IMG/VR virus record: IMGVR_UViG_3300031857_000015
Coordinates: 1 to 64,000 of that record
Length of the DNA: 64,000 bases
Reading direction: 5' to 3' (one strand)
Origin: a virus
The notes under the pieces were generated by a model that saw nothing but the letters and a program-made list of their open reading frames with translations, did not search any database and was not told the DNA's origin. Positions 5,881-14,507 of this stretch are shown in pieces. The position numbers and the translations under genes were made by a program. Positions within the stretch are counted from its first letter, which is position 1, and each line of letters opens with the position of its first letter.

Positions 5881-7057
5881 GACAAATATCCCGCTCGATC
5901 AGGCGCATGACGTCAGTGGCCGCGAGACCCACAGGCTGACTACCCTGTACCCGCAACCTGACTTTGTAAAAAATGCCGCGCACGAAAAACTAAGCGGTGC
6001 CGCGGATTTACCACGCCATTTATACGCTGATCAGCGCCATAAACTTTATCCGTGCCATACTGCCCCTGCAACATGGATGTCGGCGCTTTTCTTTGCTGAC
6101 AAGCAAGCGCAGTTCGACGCCAAGGAGGCCGAGGCTATTCAATCTAGGATACACCAAGCCGCCGAGTATTTTGGTATTCGCGGGGCTGTGGCGGAACTAG
6201 AAGAGAAGATTGCGGCCAGCTCGGCGCAGGATATTAACAGCCTGCCGGACTCGGAGTTCGCCATCGTGTGGGTCAGCGACGTAGGCGGTAAAGAGCGCCA
6301 CTGGCCGCTGCGGAACGCCGAAGAAGTCAAGTTCGCTGCGGCGCATTTCAAGACATTCCGCGACAACTTTGTGTTCGACGACCGGCACGTGATCGCCACC
6401 AAGATCCTTGAAAAGGCCGCGCAATACGGCGCCGACGTTTCGGGCGCCGAGGGCTCGCTAGAGCTGGCGGCGGGTCTGGGTGCGTGCGCCGCCAAGGTCG
6501 CGAGCGACATGATCAAAGACCGCGTAGGGCTCACCCGCCGGCAGCATTCGCAGCTGGCAGGCGAGTTGTCCAAGTTAGCCGAGGTTATCGACCAGAACCC
6601 TGAAAGGGCTCGTGCGGTCGAAATGCGGTTAAAGTTGGCAAGCGCGGTCGATAATTTCGATAGAAGCACCAACCTCTATCGCATGTACGACGCCGGCGGC
6701 CTACCGCGGCCGGAAGAAGTCCTGTTCGCCATTACTGAAAAGGTGGCGCGCGACTTTTTAGATAGCAATGTCGAAACCACCACTGGCAACGTCTACGCCC
6801 TCACTGATTTAGAGAAACTAGCGGTTGAAGACGTACGCGAGTGGCTTGGCGACGACTTCGCAGACGCGGTAAGTGCCGGCGGCGTATACATGGATCGCGA
6901 CAAGCTGGCGGCGATTGTGCCCACGCTTGACCGCGGCATGGCTACTATGCTGGACCGGCTCATGCAGGACAAGTCTGCTGCGCCGGTTGTGAAGTCAGCG
7001 TCAGCGGACAATCTGCTTTCGCTCGACCGGCTTCGCGAGCTTGCGCAGCACGGTTAA
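5879..7057 (+). CDS. Hypothetical protein, 392 aa, plus strand
   Basis: The start is ATG 5879, preceded by AGGTAGGA at a suitable distance; the frame is open to 5816 but without a comparable site. The protein is mostly helical with Lys/Glu/Ala-rich segments. The repeated alanine-rich pattern (ILEKAAQYGADV, ELAAGLGACAAKVA) resembles the composition of several virion proteins at the other end of the window, such as those at 59-64 kb, but no domain is recognised. It is isolated on its strand. It overlaps the divergent CHC2 gene at the start codon and the convergent alpha-CTD gene by 57 bases at the 3' end. Confidence 0.7.
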   Translation: MTNIPLDQAHDVSGRETHRLTTLYPQPDFVKNAAHEKLSGAADLPRHLYADQRHKLYPCHTAPATWMSALFFADKQAQFDAKEAEAIQSRIHQAAEYFGIRGAVAELEEKIAASSAQDINSLPDSEFAIVWVSDVGGKERHWPLRNAEEVKFAAAHFKTFRDNFVFDDRHVIATKILEKAAQYGADVSGAEGSLELAAGLGACAAKVASDMIKDRVGLTRRQHSQLAGELSKLAEVIDQNPERARAVEMRLKLASAVDNFDRSTNLYRMYDAGGLPRPEEVLFAITEKVARDFLDSNVETTTGNVYALTDLEKLAVEDVREWLGDDFADAVSAGGVYMDRDKLAAIVPTLDRGMATMLDRLMQDKSAAPVVKSASADNLLSLDRLRELAQHG

Positions 7058-8128
7058 AGGGTTTTCGCCGCGTAGCGCAACACCGTAATTCGCTAATTGT
7101 TCTCGAACTTCGAAGAGCGTGGCGGCCCCGAAATTTTTATACTCTAGCAGATCAGCTGCGCGCATATTCGTTAGTTCGGCGACCGTTAGTATTCCCATCT
7201 TTGTCGTCACCTTCCTTGCGCGAACAGAGAGATTTAGTTCTGTGATCGATATGTCTGTGCTAAGATGCAGCCCGATTAGCGCAAGTTTTGTAACAATTTC
7301 GTCCACTGCAGAGTGGCTGCACTTTACGATATCGTACAAGTCACGGCGATCACGCGACACAAGCTCGCGCAGCGTAGAAATACCGGCAGCGTCAAGGAGT
7401 TGACTTGTTCGCTGTGAAAACCCTAGACGCGAAACTAGCTCGCCTAAAAGCTGGTCGTCTTCCATACCGAGCGCGAGCCCATGCGCGTTTAACAACTCTT
7501 CAATCTCAGCCAAACTTGTTTCCCCAAACCCTTTGGACGCGACCAGTTCTTCTTTCGTCATGCGGGACAAGTCGGCGAGAGTTTCGACGCCCATTTTTTT
7601 CAGCTCGTTACGACAGCGCACGGAAATTTCGACGTCGGCTATCGGGACGTGCGCGGCGGTCAGCAGCGCGTTCACCTGTGGCGGCGTTTTTGGTGCGCAC
7701 AATACATACAAGATTTCATCTAACACCGTTTCGCCGGAGTTTCGCGCAGTCAGCAAATCTTTGCGGCTGAGGCGTCCGAGGTCGCCGAGCGTAGCGATAT
7801 TGTTATTTTCAAGAACGCTTCGCGTGCGTAAAGAAAATCGCGCTACGTCTAACCGTATAGCGTCTAGCAGCGTTGTCTCCATTTCTGGCGTTGTAATCGG
7901 TTTTACACGAATGTACTCGGGTATCGTTGTGTAAAGCGAGAGTACCGACCACAGACAATCAAGCTGCGTTTTTAGCGTTACGGCTGTTTGTGCGTGCGTC
8001 GGGTCTTCCGCGCTTGCGTAAACACCTTTTTTGACCGCAATTATCGCGAGTTCTGTTTTTGTTCGTATCAATCCGCACAGCCTATCGACGACCCAATCGA
8101 GCGTTTCGTTTACGGTTGTTTTTGTCAT
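7001..8128 (-). CDS. Protein with four tandem RNA polymerase alpha-CTD-like domains
   Basis: The 375-residue protein has ~90 unrecognised N-terminal residues and then four copies of the helix-hairpin-helix fold of the RNA polymerase alpha subunit C-terminal domain, at about 94-144, 165-221, 234-290 and 297-354. Each follows the family pattern: S-x-R near the first helix, GI-x-T-l-x-eL, dLl and, in three copies, a G-containing turn before the last helix. Copy 2 is closest (ISVRCRNELKKMG ... GFGETSLAEIEELL). The Arg equivalent to E. coli alpha R265, which contacts UP-element DNA, is kept in all four (R101, R171, R240, R303). The N268 equivalent is kept only in copy 2, and copy 3 has lost the turn glycine. 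There is no alpha N-terminal domain, so it cannot replace alpha; binding DNA or sigma/activators is inferred. The SD is weak. Confidence 0.8.
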   Translation of the reverse strand: MTKTTVNETLDWVVDRLCGLIRTKTELAIIAVKKGVYASAEDPTHAQTAVTLKTQLDCLWSVLSLYTTIPEYIRVKPITTPEMETTLLDAIRLDVARFSLRTRSVLENNNIATLGDLGRLSRKDLLTARNSGETVLDEILYVLCAPKTPPQVNALLTAAHVPIADVEISVRCRNELKKMGVETLADLSRMTKEELVASKGFGETSLAEIEELLNAHGLALGMEDDQLLGELVSRLGFSQRTSQLLDAAGISTLRELVSRDRRDLYDIVKCSHSAVDEIVTKLALIGLHLSTDISITELNLSVRARKVTTKMGILTVAELTNMRAADLLEYKNFGAATLFEVREQLANYGVALRGENPLTVLRKLAKPVERKQIVR

Positions 8129-8143
8129 TGCGCTACCGTATTG

Positions 8144-8632
8144 TTATTTTTGTTTAACAGCTTTTTTTCGCTTGAACGCCTTCGCGAGCTTGCGAGGAGC
8201 TGGGGCTTTCTTTTTCTTCTTGCGCGGAGCCGGGCCAAACAACGACTTAATATGTCGGAGTACGGTCGCTTCGTTTGTACGTTTGTAGTTCACGTCGTCC
8301 CACGCTTGATCGGCGTGTTCGATTCCACGCCGCGCCGCCTCGACGTCGTGGATAAGGCTGTAGTCCGGGTTGTACCATTTGAACGCCCGCCCCTTGCCCT
8401 TGTTCCACTTAAAGTCTGCCACCGATATTTCATAGACGGTGTGCGTCATTGTATTGATAATTATTTGCGCTTGGCATTTAAACTCTTTGTTCGGCAGCCG
8501 GATTGTAGCCTCAAGTATCTGCGCGTTGTCGCCGTAACAAGACCAGCAGTACTTTTCGCTGTCGCTTATTAAAAACCGGCAGGCGTTTAAAAAGCGATTA
8601 ACACGCAGAGCACCGCAGTGATCAAATGTCAT
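8144..8632 (-). CDS. Hypothetical protein, 162 aa, with basic C-terminal tail
   Basis: The body contains several Cys and aromatic residues (EKYCWSCYGDNAQ, with C-x2-C) and a strand-rich middle (FKCQAQIIINTMTHTVYEISV). The last ~35 residues are Lys/Arg/Ala/Pro-rich (PAPRKKKKKAPAPRK), typical of a tail that binds nucleic acid. No family is recognised. Its ATG overlaps the upstream stop in an ATGA, so it is translationally coupled. It lies between csrA and the alpha-CTD protein. Confidence 0.65.
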   Translation of the reverse strand: MTFDHCGALRVNRFLNACRFLISDSEKYCWSCYGDNAQILEATIRLPNKEFKCQAQIIINTMTHTVYEISVADFKWNKGKGRAFKWYNPDYSLIHDVEAARRGIEHADQAWDDVNYKRTNEATVLRHIKSLFGPAPRKKKKKAPAPRKLAKAFKRKKAVKQK

Positions 8633-8871
8633 TTTGATATCAACTCCTTTAATGCGTGAAACAGCCGGCGCACCGACGGCATGAGCTGCCGCTTTCTTAG
8701 CGGTTCAGCACCCGGCTCAACGTTCTGAGAAGATAAGCCGCCAGTGTGTTCTTCTAGTTCACTGCGGCAGTAGTCGAGGTAGAGCTGCCAGTTGTCGTAG
8801 GCGTCTCTGTCTTCGGCTCGTTCGTATGGGATGTAGGGGGGTTCGTCAGGGACTCTGTCGTTCCAGCCCAT
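8629..8871 (-). CDS. Hypothetical protein, 80 aa, overlapping csrA
   Basis: An acidic N-terminal half rich in Tyr, Pro and Glu (MGWNDRVPDEPPYIPYERAE) is followed by a basic helical end (KRQLMPSVRRLFHALKELI). No domain is recognised. ATG 8871 follows AAGGA at about 9 bases. Its first 39 codons overlap the end of the csrA frame on the same strand, an unusually long overlap, and its stop overlaps the next start in ATGA. Confidence 0.6.
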   Translation of the reverse strand: MGWNDRVPDEPPYIPYERAEDRDAYDNWQLYLDYCRSELEEHTGGLSSQNVEPGAEPLRKRQLMPSVRRLFHALKELISK

Positions 8872-9044
8872 TGTTTGGTGTCCTTCTTTTTGCTCCCGTC
8901 AATTAATTCGCCACGCACGATTGATGTCGTTTGCGGCGCCGTTAGTCCAATCTTGACGCGATCGCCTGTGATTCCCAAAACCTTCACGACGATCCCATCG
9001 CCAATTACGACTTCCTGTTCTTTCTTCCTTGAGAGTACAAGCAT
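8754..9044 (-). CDS. csrA: CsrA/RsmA-family post-transcriptional regulator
   Basis: The first ~57 residues are a full CsrA: MLVLSRKKEQEVVIGDGIVV, then VLGITGDRVKIGLTAP and IVRGELIDG. The RNA-contacting residues L4, R6, R44 and E46 of E. coli CsrA are all present at the same positions. CsrA dimers bind GGA motifs, usually in hairpin loops or over SD sequences, and block or alter translation. Family members are normally 55-70 residues. Here an extra Thr/Ser/Pro-rich tail (to residue 96) is read out of frame across the start of the next gene and is probably unstructured. ATG 9044 has a GGTG-type SD without GGA, so self-repression is not obvious. Several structural-gene leaders in the window match the CsrA consensus. 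Confidence 0.93.
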   Translation of the reverse strand: MLVLSRKKEQEVVIGDGIVVKVLGITGDRVKIGLTAPQTTSIVRGELIDGSKKKDTKQWAGTTESLTNPPTSHTNEPKTETPTTTGSSTSTTAAVN

Positions 9045-9726: not shown

Positions 9727-10210
9727 TGAGGCCATTCCTGCTCTTGATGATCTGCACGCCCCGGCGGTACAGCTCGCATAGATTATACGCGATCGTCTCC
9801 AGTGGCGGCCTAGGTAGCTGGGCAAGAGGCTCGCCCGCGTCGAGCGACACCCAGCCGGGAGCCCCGGTCCACGTGGCGTACCGCCCGTCGGCAAAAGCGA
9901 GTGTCTGACCGCAGCCGCTTGTAATTGCGTCGGCGTCAAGCTCAAGCTCTTCTTGCGTTCGCCGCATCATTTCGCTGACCAGCAAGCGCTGCTCGCTGGA
10001 TAGGAACTGGAGATTTTCTAGCATGTCGGCGAGCAGCAGATAGAACACCGCCTCTTTGTCCACGTAGTCGCTGCCGGCGGCAAATCCGCGCTGTAAAACC
10101 GCGGTGAATACGCTGCGAATTTGCAACTTGCTAAGTTTTATGACGCGCATTACCATATCAAGCGTCAGGTCTGTTTCTTCCATGGAGGTATTTATGTCCG
10201 TTTCCATCAT
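9650..10210 (-). CDS. Hypothetical protein, ~186 aa
   Basis: The start is placed at the ATG-ATG pair at 10210/10207 (METDINTSMEETDLTLD), preceded by AAAGG at 7 bases. The N-terminal half is helical (VIKLSKLQIRSVFTAVLQRG, then LLLADMLENLQFLSSEQRLL). A middle segment (GCGQTLAFADGRYATWTGAPG) may form a beta hairpin. The family is unknown. The 5' end overlaps the divergent plus-strand gene by 17 bases, so any promoter for either gene must lie within the other's coding sequence or further away. Confidence 0.6.
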   Translation of the reverse strand: MMETDINTSMEETDLTLDMVMRVIKLSKLQIRSVFTAVLQRGFAAGSDYVDKEAVFYLLLADMLENLQFLSSEQRLLVSEMMRRTQEELELDADAITSGCGQTLAFADGRYATWTGAPGWVSLDAGEPLAQLPRPPLETIAYNLCELYRRGVQIIKSRNGLNVDNSAGSLEKQGDVCERPTDPVSG

Positions 10211-10472
10211 TGACAACCTTTCTAATATCACTCAGGGCCGCGCCGAGATCATCGTGAGCGCTGATGGTATCGAGGAACTGCTGGCTGCCGCAACCTCGAA
10301 CATGGTGCTGCAGAAGGCTGCGGAAGCTGGGTTGCATCGTCCGGGCGTGTCGAACGCCAGCGGCCCGTACCCGGTTGACGCCGACGGCAAAACAGACGAC
10401 GAGCTGATGATGGGCAAGCGCGGCCCCGTCGTCGGTTATCGCCGAGATTTTGTTATCTTGGCGTCGCTTTGA
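10194..10472 (+). CDS. Small hypothetical protein, 92 aa, plus strand
   Basis: ATG 10194 follows GGAGG at 5 bases, a strong site that decides the start (MSVSIIDNLSNITQGRAEI). The N-terminal half is helical, with an alanine-rich segment (EELLAAATSNMVLQKAAEAG). The C-terminal half contains GPYPVDADGKTDDELMMGKRG, a flexible acidic loop. No family is recognised. It ends exactly where the convergent minus-strand gene ends. Confidence 0.6.
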   Translation: MSVSIIDNLSNITQGRAEIIVSADGIEELLAAATSNMVLQKAAEAGLHRPGVSNASGPYPVDADGKTDDELMMGKRGPVVGYRRDFVILASL

Positions 10473-10802
10473 TCAGGCGTCGTCTGGTCGGCTGACAATA
10501 AGCATATTCGTGGGCTTTCCGTAATCAAATGAGATAACGGCAAAGCACACGGGCGTCCTGCAGTCGATATCGAGCTTCTTCGTCGCGGCGTATCCGACGC
10601 GGAAGCTCGTTGTCTTTGCCGCTTTGATCGCGGCTGCTTTTGTCTTGAATAAACCGACCGGCACGTCGTCCATCGTGTGGCGCCAGACGACAAGGTGACC
10701 GGTTAGGCCCGGCACGACCTCTGTGCCTTTTGGTTTGCGCAGCAGTTTATTCGCACCCGAGGCGCGCGGAGCGCGCCTCTTCTTTTGCGTTTTTGTTTTC
10801 AT
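10473..10802 (-). CDS. Basic hypothetical protein, 109 aa
   Basis: The N-terminus is highly basic (MKTKTQKKRRAPRASGANK). It is followed by an alpha/beta region (LTGHLVVWRHTMDDVPVGLF, KTKAAAIKAAKTTSF) and a beta-rich end (VCFAVISFDYG). It could bind nucleic acid, but no known family is matched. The start overlaps the upstream stop in ATGA and is preceded by GGAG at about 7 bases. Confidence 0.6.
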   Translation of the reverse strand: MKTKTQKKRRAPRASGANKLLRKPKGTEVVPGLTGHLVVWRHTMDDVPVGLFKTKAAAIKAAKTTSFRVGYAATKKLDIDCRTPVCFAVISFDYGKPTNMLIVSRPDDA

Positions 10803-11278
10803 TCCTCTACTCCAAACTTGTCGATATGCGCCAGTCTGGCGCAGTAGAACTCAGCCACAAGCCCGGCTACGTTGCCGAACCGTTTGACCATATCTGGAAC
10901 TACCTGCTCGTTAAACACGCGCAGGATAACTTTCCGAAACTTGGCGATGGCTTCTTTTGTGTAACCCTCTTCTCTCGCTTTTTCGGCGGCTTTGCGAATG
11001 TCTGCATTGCCGTCAAACTGCAGTTGAAGATAAGCCGGGTTTACAAACTCAATGATGTGACCATAGACCTGCCGAACCTCGTAGGTGCACGGCACGTCAA
11101 ATACACCGGGGCCGGGCCAGCGTTCACCGTTGACCGCGTCTTTTGACAGATACCGCAGCTTTCCCAGCGTCCAACCGAATGCCGCTGCATCATCATTCGG
11201 TTCAGCCATGACGAAGGCTGGTTTTGGCGCTGGCGGTTGTTTGTCAAGTTTTGTTGCAGATTTACTTTTACGCGCCAT
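10799..11278 (-). CDS. Hypothetical protein, 159 aa
   Basis: A Lys-rich, Pro-containing N-terminus (MARKSKSATKLDKQPPAPKP) precedes a globular part with aromatic-rich strands (VYGHIIEFVNPAYLQLQF) and a C-terminal helical part (KAAEKAREEGYTKEAIAKF). No recognisable family. The SD is poor. A strong ~73-base hairpin lies immediately upstream of the start (11317-11389) and would form the 5' untranslated leader of this transcript. Confidence 0.6.
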   Translation of the reverse strand: MARKSKSATKLDKQPPAPKPAFVMAEPNDDAAAFGWTLGKLRYLSKDAVNGERWPGPGVFDVPCTYEVRQVYGHIIEFVNPAYLQLQFDGNADIRKAAEKAREEGYTKEAIAKFRKVILRVFNEQVVPDMVKRFGNVAGLVAEFYCARLAHIDKFGVEE

Positions 11279-13604: not shown

Positions 13605-14507
13605 CTACGATTGCGCAGCCGCTTTTACCGCGGCACGTAATGTTGCGTTTGTTTGCAGCTCAGAGAGAAGCTGTGCGAGCGTTAATTCACCCTGCGGCCC
13701 GGTTGGTCCGGTAGCGCCCATGTTGCCGCACGGCCCTGTGGCGCCCGCCACGCCGACGCCTGTAGCGCCTGTGGCGCCGCGGGCGCCTGACGGACCTGTT
13801 ACTCCGCGCGGCCCTGTGGCGCCCTGTGGTCCTGTAGCGCCCGTATCGCCTCTGGCGCCACGGGCACCAGCCGGCCCCGTTTGCCCGGCCGGCCCCTGAG
13901 CGCCTTGCGACCCGGCCGAGCCTTGCGGTCCGGCTGGGCCGGGAGGTCCGCCTAAGCCTTGCGGCCCCTGCACGCCTTGTGCTCCGCGATCACCTTTTGG
14001 TCCGGTCGCGCCGCGGGGTCCGGTAGGACCTGTAATCCCCGTAGCCCCTGTAGAGCCCCTAGCGCCGTTTGTGCCGTTTATACCGGAGGGACCTGTGGGT
14101 CCGGTGGCCCCGCGCAAACCAGTGGGTCCTGTGGGCCCTGTGGGCCCCGTAGGGCCTGTAGGACCCGACGCGCCAGTAGGGCCTGTGGTTCCGGTTGCGC
14201 CTCGTGCGCCGGTTACACCTGTCGGCCCGGTTATCCCTGTGGCCCCGCGCGGGCCGGTCGCGCCTGCGCGGCCAACTGGGCCTGTAGAGCCTGTGGCGCC
14301 TTTATCCCCTTTGTCTCCTTTAGCTCCCTGCGGACCGGCAGGGCCGCGGGCACCGGCAGGCCCTTGTGGTCCAACCGGCCCGGGGTTTCCTTGTGGTCCG
14401 GCGGGTCCGGGCGGACAGACACCGCAGCCGCCGCCACCCTGCGCCATCGTAGCGCCGTCATACGGGACGAATTCGATGTTGTCGTCGGTGTTTTCTGTGT
14501 CTGTCAT
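13605..14507 (-). CDS. Collagen-like fibre protein, 300 aa
   Basis: After an acidic N-terminus and a glycine/cysteine linker ([12 protein letters not shown]), residues ~31-270 are uninterrupted Gly-X-Y triplets, many GPTG, GATG and GARG, with KGDKGDKG early on. Such repeats form collagen triple helices in bacterial and phage fibres. The repeat ends with [16 protein letters not shown] and a ~30-residue helical cap ([20 protein letters not shown]). That cap resembles the end of the next, larger collagen-like protein and is probably the trimerisation element. A trimeric fibre shaft is inferred. The repetitive Gly/Pro codons also generate long false frames on the other strand. Confidence 0.9.

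Follow-up and report, generated by a model that had tools for sequence, protein, structure and literature searches.

A phage protein with four tandem RNA polymerase alpha-CTD domains and its probable relationship to a planctomycete TPR protein family

We describe a phage gene, here called the tetra gene, whose product carries four tandem domains of the RNA polymerase (RNAP) alpha-CTD type and no alpha-NTD. The gene lies in a 64,000-nucleotide stretch of DNA (the window), which comprises positions 1 to 64,000 of the IMG/VR virus record IMGVR_UViG_3300031857_000015, and its location and those of its domains and neighbours are given in Table 1. At least two of its repeats descend from a planctomycete protein that combines a TPR region with two alpha-CTDs (TPR-alpha-CTD2), so that the phage protein is probably a copy or a blocker of a transcription factor of its host and not an unprecedented invention. 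A role in transcription, as proposed in an earlier note made from the DNA letters, is the natural reading of this domain content.

Table 1. Tetra gene, its domains and surroundings, and other phage genes mentioned in the text. Positions are those of the window unless preceded by G000 or an L number.
Feature	Position	Strand	Remarks
Tetra-alpha-CTD ORF, 375 aa	7001–8128	−	ATG start; PF03118 E 1.4e-46
N-terminal segment, residues 1–90	7859–8128	−	predicted helices, low confidence; occupies place of host TPR repeats
D1, residues 91–146	7691–7858	−	PF03118 33.2 bits; diverged, CTD-a-related
D2, residues 157–222	7463–7660	−	PF03118 57.9 bits; best-preserved copy, CTD-a-related
D3, residues 225–292	7253–7456	−	PF03118 32.3 bits; most diverged copy
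D4, residues 293–355	7064–7252	−	PF03118 54.1 bits; CTD-b-related, carries K268 of CTD-b
Left direct repeat	7017–7045	.	26/29 identical to right repeat; also codes 3′ end of 413-aa plus-strand gene
Right direct repeat	8166–8194	.	29 bp; also codes 3′ end of 162-aa minus-strand gene
Convergent conserved phage gene, 413 aa	5816–7057	+	3′ end overlaps 3′ end of tetra gene
162-aa ORF directly upstream of tetra gene	8144–8632	−	kept in relatives; no Pfam match
CsrA homologue, upstream on same strand	8754–9044	−	PF02599 E 1.2e-19
Sigma-70-like protein, regions 3 and 4, 280 aa	32348–33190	−	Sigma70_r3 E 4.6e-10; PDB matches SigA/RpoD
Beta + N-terminal beta′ fusion, 1467 aa	G000 67240–71643 (L005:3240–7643)	−	
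Separate C-terminal beta′, 626 aa	G000 64380–66260 (L005:380–2260)	−	
DNA polymerase A with uracil-DNA-glycosylase-like domain in front	G000 160008–163175 (L010:6008–9175)	−	
GNAT acetyltransferase	1889–2341	−	
Collagen-like repeat proteins beside tail genes	13605–14507; L008:59–2599		

The Pfam family RNA_pol_A_CTD (PF03118) matches the whole protein in four stretches with 156.5 bits against a curated cut-off of 23.8, and each of the four domains singly exceeds that cut-off (32–58 bits). A six-frame search of the whole virus record (198,101 bases) gave no PF03118 matches other than these four. In the PDB, the nearest sequences are RNAP alpha without exception. The AlphaFold2 model used here was built from a 43-row alignment, the single-sequence model being poor, and has block-mean pLDDT values of ∼79–95 for D1, 76–96 for D2, 62–82 for most of D3 and 91–96 for most of D4. 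Foldseek places only RNAP alpha or alpha-CTD structures among its top PDB matches, and the best single-domain ones have an rmsd of 0.7–1.2 Å over 62–67 columns. The four alpha-CTD repeats recognized in the earlier note are thus borne out by both profile and predicted fold. Another helix-hairpin-helix family, such as the DNA repair proteins that the note had named as the alternative, does leave a trace in the protein (HHH_5, 31 bits), but PF03118 reaches 156 bits in four stretches and the top structural matches are all RNAP alpha, so that this assignment was rejected and has practically no probability.

Pfam returned PF03118 and helix-hairpin-helix-type matches only, with neither alpha-NTD nor TPR among them, and no sigma family match was obtained from Pfam or NCBIfam. 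The NCBIfam rpoA models cover the CTD part of the protein alone, with scores below their cut-off. The equivalents of E. coli Arg265 are separated by 69 residues between D2 and D3 and by 63 between D3 and D4, leaving almost no linker. The N-terminal segment has pLDDT values of ∼41–66 over residues 1–80, and searches with this segment alone found no viral relative.

Cellular relatives were sought with alignments of D2 or D4 and alpha-CTD-like sequences, some of them composed as bait, which steered the search patterns towards alpha-CTD-like sequences; the matches were confirmed independently of the bait, in tblastn runs that used the phage domain as query, after which the unmodified phage protein was searched as well. 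The search covered 84,980 bacterial and archaeal species. The best 80 of the 468 confirmed genome loci are by title all Planctomycetota or planctomycete-like MAGs, one being titled only 'bacterium'. An ORF with two C-terminal alpha-CTDs (CTD-a and CTD-b) is present at 79 of these loci, and the one remaining locus is truncated where its contig stops. Scanned examples have a TPR-like N-terminal part and lack an alpha-NTD. The unmodified phage protein matches 385 of 392 planctomycete genomes, with best identities of 37–61% and frames typically of 430–500 residues, and the alpha-CTD proteins that a PF03118 search showed in 12 planctomycete genomes were mostly of three kinds: RpoA, the TPR protein with two CTDs, and a stand-alone form of ∼95 residues. 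On this census, the TPR + two-alpha-CTD protein without an alpha-NTD is near-universal in Planctomycetota. No NCBIfam equivalog model reaches its cut-off on these proteins, the neighbourhoods of their genes gave no functional hint, and no published description of the family was found in a literature limited largely to open-access articles. The TPR-alpha-CTD2 loci analysed are L109–L188 and L219–L248, and the stand-alone proteins are L249–L256 and L265. In many TPR-alpha-CTD2 proteins (L219–L229, L231–L233, L236, L237, L239–L241, L243 and L245) the second CTD is strongly diverged, and such diverged CTD-b domains in the tree have at times lost R265 (L221 and L245).

D2 and D4, together with D1 by grouping, descend from host CTD-a and CTD-b or from earlier phage captures of these domains. 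A blastp alignment with one host protein (L120) extends over 206 columns at 40% identity (E 4e-36), pairing D2 with CTD-a and D4 with CTD-b and leaving D3 as an insert. Against a profile built from 96 host proteins, D1 aligns with CTD-a, D2–D3 with CTD-a–CTD-b and D4 with CTD-b, the a, b order being kept. Phage residues 1–97 find no match in this profile, and the TPR region is therefore gone or replaced. In a tree of 83 domains and 65 columns, where the long branches of D1 and D3 are flagged, D1 and D2 are found with host CTD-a and D4 inside the CTD-b clade (support 98/85). D2 is 62% identical to the CTD-a of L177, and D4 is 62% identical to the CTD-b of L132.

Alternative topologies were compared by AU tests. 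Pure internal duplication, with one clade for all four repeats, was rejected (p 0.0047), as was grouping with RpoA CTDs for D2 (p 3e-7), D4 (p 2e-5) and D1 (p 0.007). Compatible topologies include D2 and D4 as one clade (p 0.08), D3 with planctomycete RpoA, and D4 with the one-domain CTDs found elsewhere in the phage family (p 0.64). Since the last of these was not rejected, D4 may derive from an earlier phage capture. D3 may have come from a divergent host CTD-b or from an RpoA CTD.

Contact residues were read from an 83-row alignment and are given in E. coli numbering; phage positions count Met as 1. The Arg equivalent to R265, said in the earlier note to be retained throughout, is indeed present in all four copies (R101, R171, R240 and R303), as is the equivalent of E302. 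The remaining contacts vary between copies, again as had been observed: N268 is kept in D2 alone (D4 has Lys there), G296 in D1, D2 and D4 but not in D3, S299 in one copy with Thr in one further copy, and K298 in none. Yet much of this agrees with the host proteins. All 22 rows of planctomycete CTD-a have R265, N268, C269, N294, G296, T298, S299 and E302, all 17 rows of CTD-b have K268, and position 298 is mostly Thr in planctomycete RpoA, Thr298 being normal in RpoA, CTD-a and CTD-b alike. The Lys-to-Thr change at position 298 in D1 and D2 and the Lys at position 268 in D4 are thus inherited and not phage novelties. Judged by these positions, D2 is the copy with the best preservation and D3 the one with the worst. 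As N268 is confined to D2 and G296 is lost from D3, some copies may not bind DNA.

The tetra gene was inserted in this lineage specifically, without damage to either neighbouring gene, as indicated by joined flanks in a relative and by bounding direct repeats. In this relative (G028), whose beta-beta′ is 98% identical, the two flanks of the tetra gene are adjacent: window positions 6700–7046 and 8157–8900 map onto G028 10181–11227 with a 39-bp overlap. Both 29-bp repeats align to a single site in G028, which is the common 3′ end of the two convergent neighbours. The convergent 413-aa gene is found in 19 of 37 relatives (42–97% identical).

A scan for the uracil-DNA-glycosylase–DNA polymerase A arrangement yielded at least 42 related IMG/VR loci, with several records near 200 kb. 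The four-domain gene is absent from all 37 related records, many of which are fragments. PF03118 occurs in two of the 37, each time as one single domain elsewhere in the genome. By exact 8-mers, no close homologue of the whole protein was found in viral or genome contigs, and the same holds for D3 or the N-terminus alone; phage and plasmid records gave partial matches only, with less than 60% identity and mostly in unannotated records. A single CTD-b-like gene is carried by the L105/L106 and L107/G014 branches of the family, at a shared place further along the genome, and by G023 at yet another place. From this distribution, the acquisition of alpha-CTDs in the phage family looks recurrent.

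The earlier note had seen in the tetra gene, together with a sigma-like gene and CsrA, part of an extensive take-over of host expression. The two companion genes are both real, but a place for the tetra gene in a core programme of this kind is not supported, since it is a lineage-specific insertion absent from relatives whose RNAP is 97–98% identical. Any take-over model must also reckon with the phage's own beta-beta′ RNAP, which lay outside the reach of the note. The beta-beta′ fusion keeps the DFDGD catalytic motif, matches bacterial beta with an E value of about 2e-68, and is present in 15 of 17 relatives tested. No alpha-NTD Pfam family was found among the phage ORFs scanned, in line with the note's reading of the tetra protein, although a strongly diverged one could escape. 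The sigma-70-like gene sits inside an apparent structural gene block. RNAP-bearing group 1 jumbo phages are stated to lack sigma factors (review, PMC7824862), whereas the present phage family has RNAP plus a sigma-like protein.

This large phage probably infects a member of Planctomycetota, to judge mainly by the descent of its captured domains from CTD-a and CTD-b. A phage tRNA-Thr shares 87% identity over 84 bases with a planctomycete tRNA; this likeness is weak host evidence, because tRNAs are conserved and planctomycetes were the sole phylum compared. When 392 planctomycete genomes were searched at the DNA level for spacers or common sequence, those among the matches listed were tRNA, acidic low-complexity and collagen sequences only.

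We propose tentatively, at somewhat less than an even chance, that the tetra protein acts as a TPR-less copy and competes for DNA or partner proteins with RpoA as well as with the TPR-alpha-CTD2 factor of the host. The phage would infect a planctomycete and make a free alpha-CTD array outside RNA polymerase. Every copy has the DNA-facing Arg, and D2, D3 and D4 follow one another almost without linker; such an array would bind UP-element-like AT-rich DNA and/or the surfaces of partners, which may be sigma region 4, activators, or proteins with which the host TPR-alpha-CTD2 factor associates. Having no TPR arm, it would be a competitor of this factor and also of the CTD of RpoA. As a result, alpha-CTD-dependent host transcription would fall, and the phage beta-beta′ RNAP would meanwhile read the phage genes. 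An antagonist is favoured over an orthologous replacement because capture is recurrent, R265 and E302 are present in all copies, and the TPR arm is lost. However, inhibition of host promoters might be superfluous for a phage that encodes an RNAP itself. In its broadest form the proposal states that planctomycete phages with host-like RNAP repeatedly capture the CTDs of TPR-alpha-CTD2 and that one lineage built a TPR-less, four-domain trans antagonist of alpha-CTD-dependent transcription; this we regard as possible, with limited confidence.

The same inventory of phage genes could be read in the opposite sense, with the array as a positive cofactor that gives the phage beta-beta′ RNAP alpha-CTD-like upstream DNA contacts in trans, perhaps via the sigma-like protein. 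The phage has the beta-beta′N fusion, beta′C and a sigma-like protein and no recognisable alpha-NTD, and alpha-CTD touches sigma region 4 in solved complexes (for example, PDB 3n97). Such a cofactor is nevertheless unlikely, since the absence of the tetra gene from relatives with 97–98% identical beta-beta′ means that the enzyme works without the tetra protein, and no RNAP-tethering domain was recognised in the latter. A singleton insertion between direct repeats, with D1 and D3 on long branches, is also what a recent and decaying gene capture without selected function might leave behind. Its 375-codon frame is intact, however, with GC by codon position following the pattern of coding genes, and R265 and E302 are kept in all four copies, the diverged ones included; recurrent alpha-CTD capture in the phage family likewise argues for use, and we consider neutral capture improbable.

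It is rather more doubtful that the four short-linked modules bridge or coat DNA, sitting on adjacent or distant AT-rich minor grooves so as to organise or silence it while making no specific contact with the transcription machinery. The presence of R265 in every one of the four copies and the R265 spacings, which leave little linker, are consistent with bridging, but N268, G296 and K298 vary, D1 and D3 seem degraded, and the host relatives carry a TPR protein-interaction region, which is not a bridging design. Very improbable, finally, is a counter-defence decoy in which the array would compete with the alpha-CTD-like domain of the BREX kinase PglW. D4 does match positions 796–862 of the NCBIfam PglW model (E 4.5e-8), and an alpha-CTD-like domain also lies inside a kinase-like protein of a planctomycete (L263, G044:C43), which recalls BREX PglW; the PglW match, however, is far below the family cut-off and reflects the shared domain only, and TPR-alpha-CTD2 is much closer.

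Among known systems, the tetra protein resembles TPR-alpha-CTD2 in having several alpha-CTDs without an alpha-NTD and in its relatedness to CTD-a and CTD-b. The host protein, in contrast, is ∼440–500 residues long and has a TPR region and two CTDs ∼88 residues apart, whereas the phage protein has no TPR and four CTDs 63–70 residues apart, with several contact residues lost. The single alpha-CTD genes of the same phage family (L066/L108 in G014, L067 in G023, and L105–L107) are also NTD-less, accessory and CTD-b-like, as D4 is, but each has one domain and lies elsewhere in the genome. Viral sigma-region-4-like proteins with three alpha-CTDs (L015, L017 and L018) or one (L019 and L021) lack the NTD as well; they differ in that their CTDs are fused to a sigma-4-like helix-turn-helix and belong to other lineages of the tree. 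The three-CTD protein (L015:4933–6177, the same in L017 and L018) has two sigma-region-4-like segments, and a second alpha-CTD ORF lies just upstream of it in L015 (4358–4882). RpoA shares the CTD fold and R265 with the tetra protein, but the latter has no NTD, and its D1, D2 and D4 are not of RpoA-CTD descent. The planctomycete stand-alone proteins of ∼95 residues are likewise NTD-less alpha-CTDs, although they form a separate starred clade (100/100).

The view in the earlier note that no phage protein of this design had been described is not supported for the design at large: the alpha-CTD domain is known, NTD-less proteins with two alpha-CTDs are near-universal in planctomycetes, and sigma-4-like proteins with up to three alpha-CTDs are encoded in other viral contigs. 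For a phage protein with four alpha-CTD domains, no published description was found in a literature limited largely to open-access articles. If the proposed antagonism is true, the tetra protein would represent a class of effectors with which phages imitate a portion of RNA polymerase. T4 Alt and Mod chemically modify alpha-CTD. A protein that copies alpha-CTD would take another route than such modification or the Rac-triggered cleavage of alpha (PMC7552054). The analysis also draws attention to two families: a near-universal and apparently undescribed planctomycete one, in which TPR and two alpha-CTDs occur without an alpha-NTD, and a phage one that encodes a host-like beta-beta′ polymerase along with a sigma-like protein. 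Together, the two families would make planctomycete transcription testable through its phages.

Several other phage genes were recorded. A GNAT acetyltransferase gene is present in the window; Rac, through which Pseudomonas phages bring about the cleavage of RNAP alpha, is also a GNAT (PMC7552054). Pfam matches of G000 ORFs in L005–L008 include Volactin-like (E 1.7e-62), PhoH, thymidine kinase, matrixin-like peptidase, arylsulfotransferase-like and ferritin-like proteins. The collagen-like repeat proteins encoded beside the tail genes are probably fibres.
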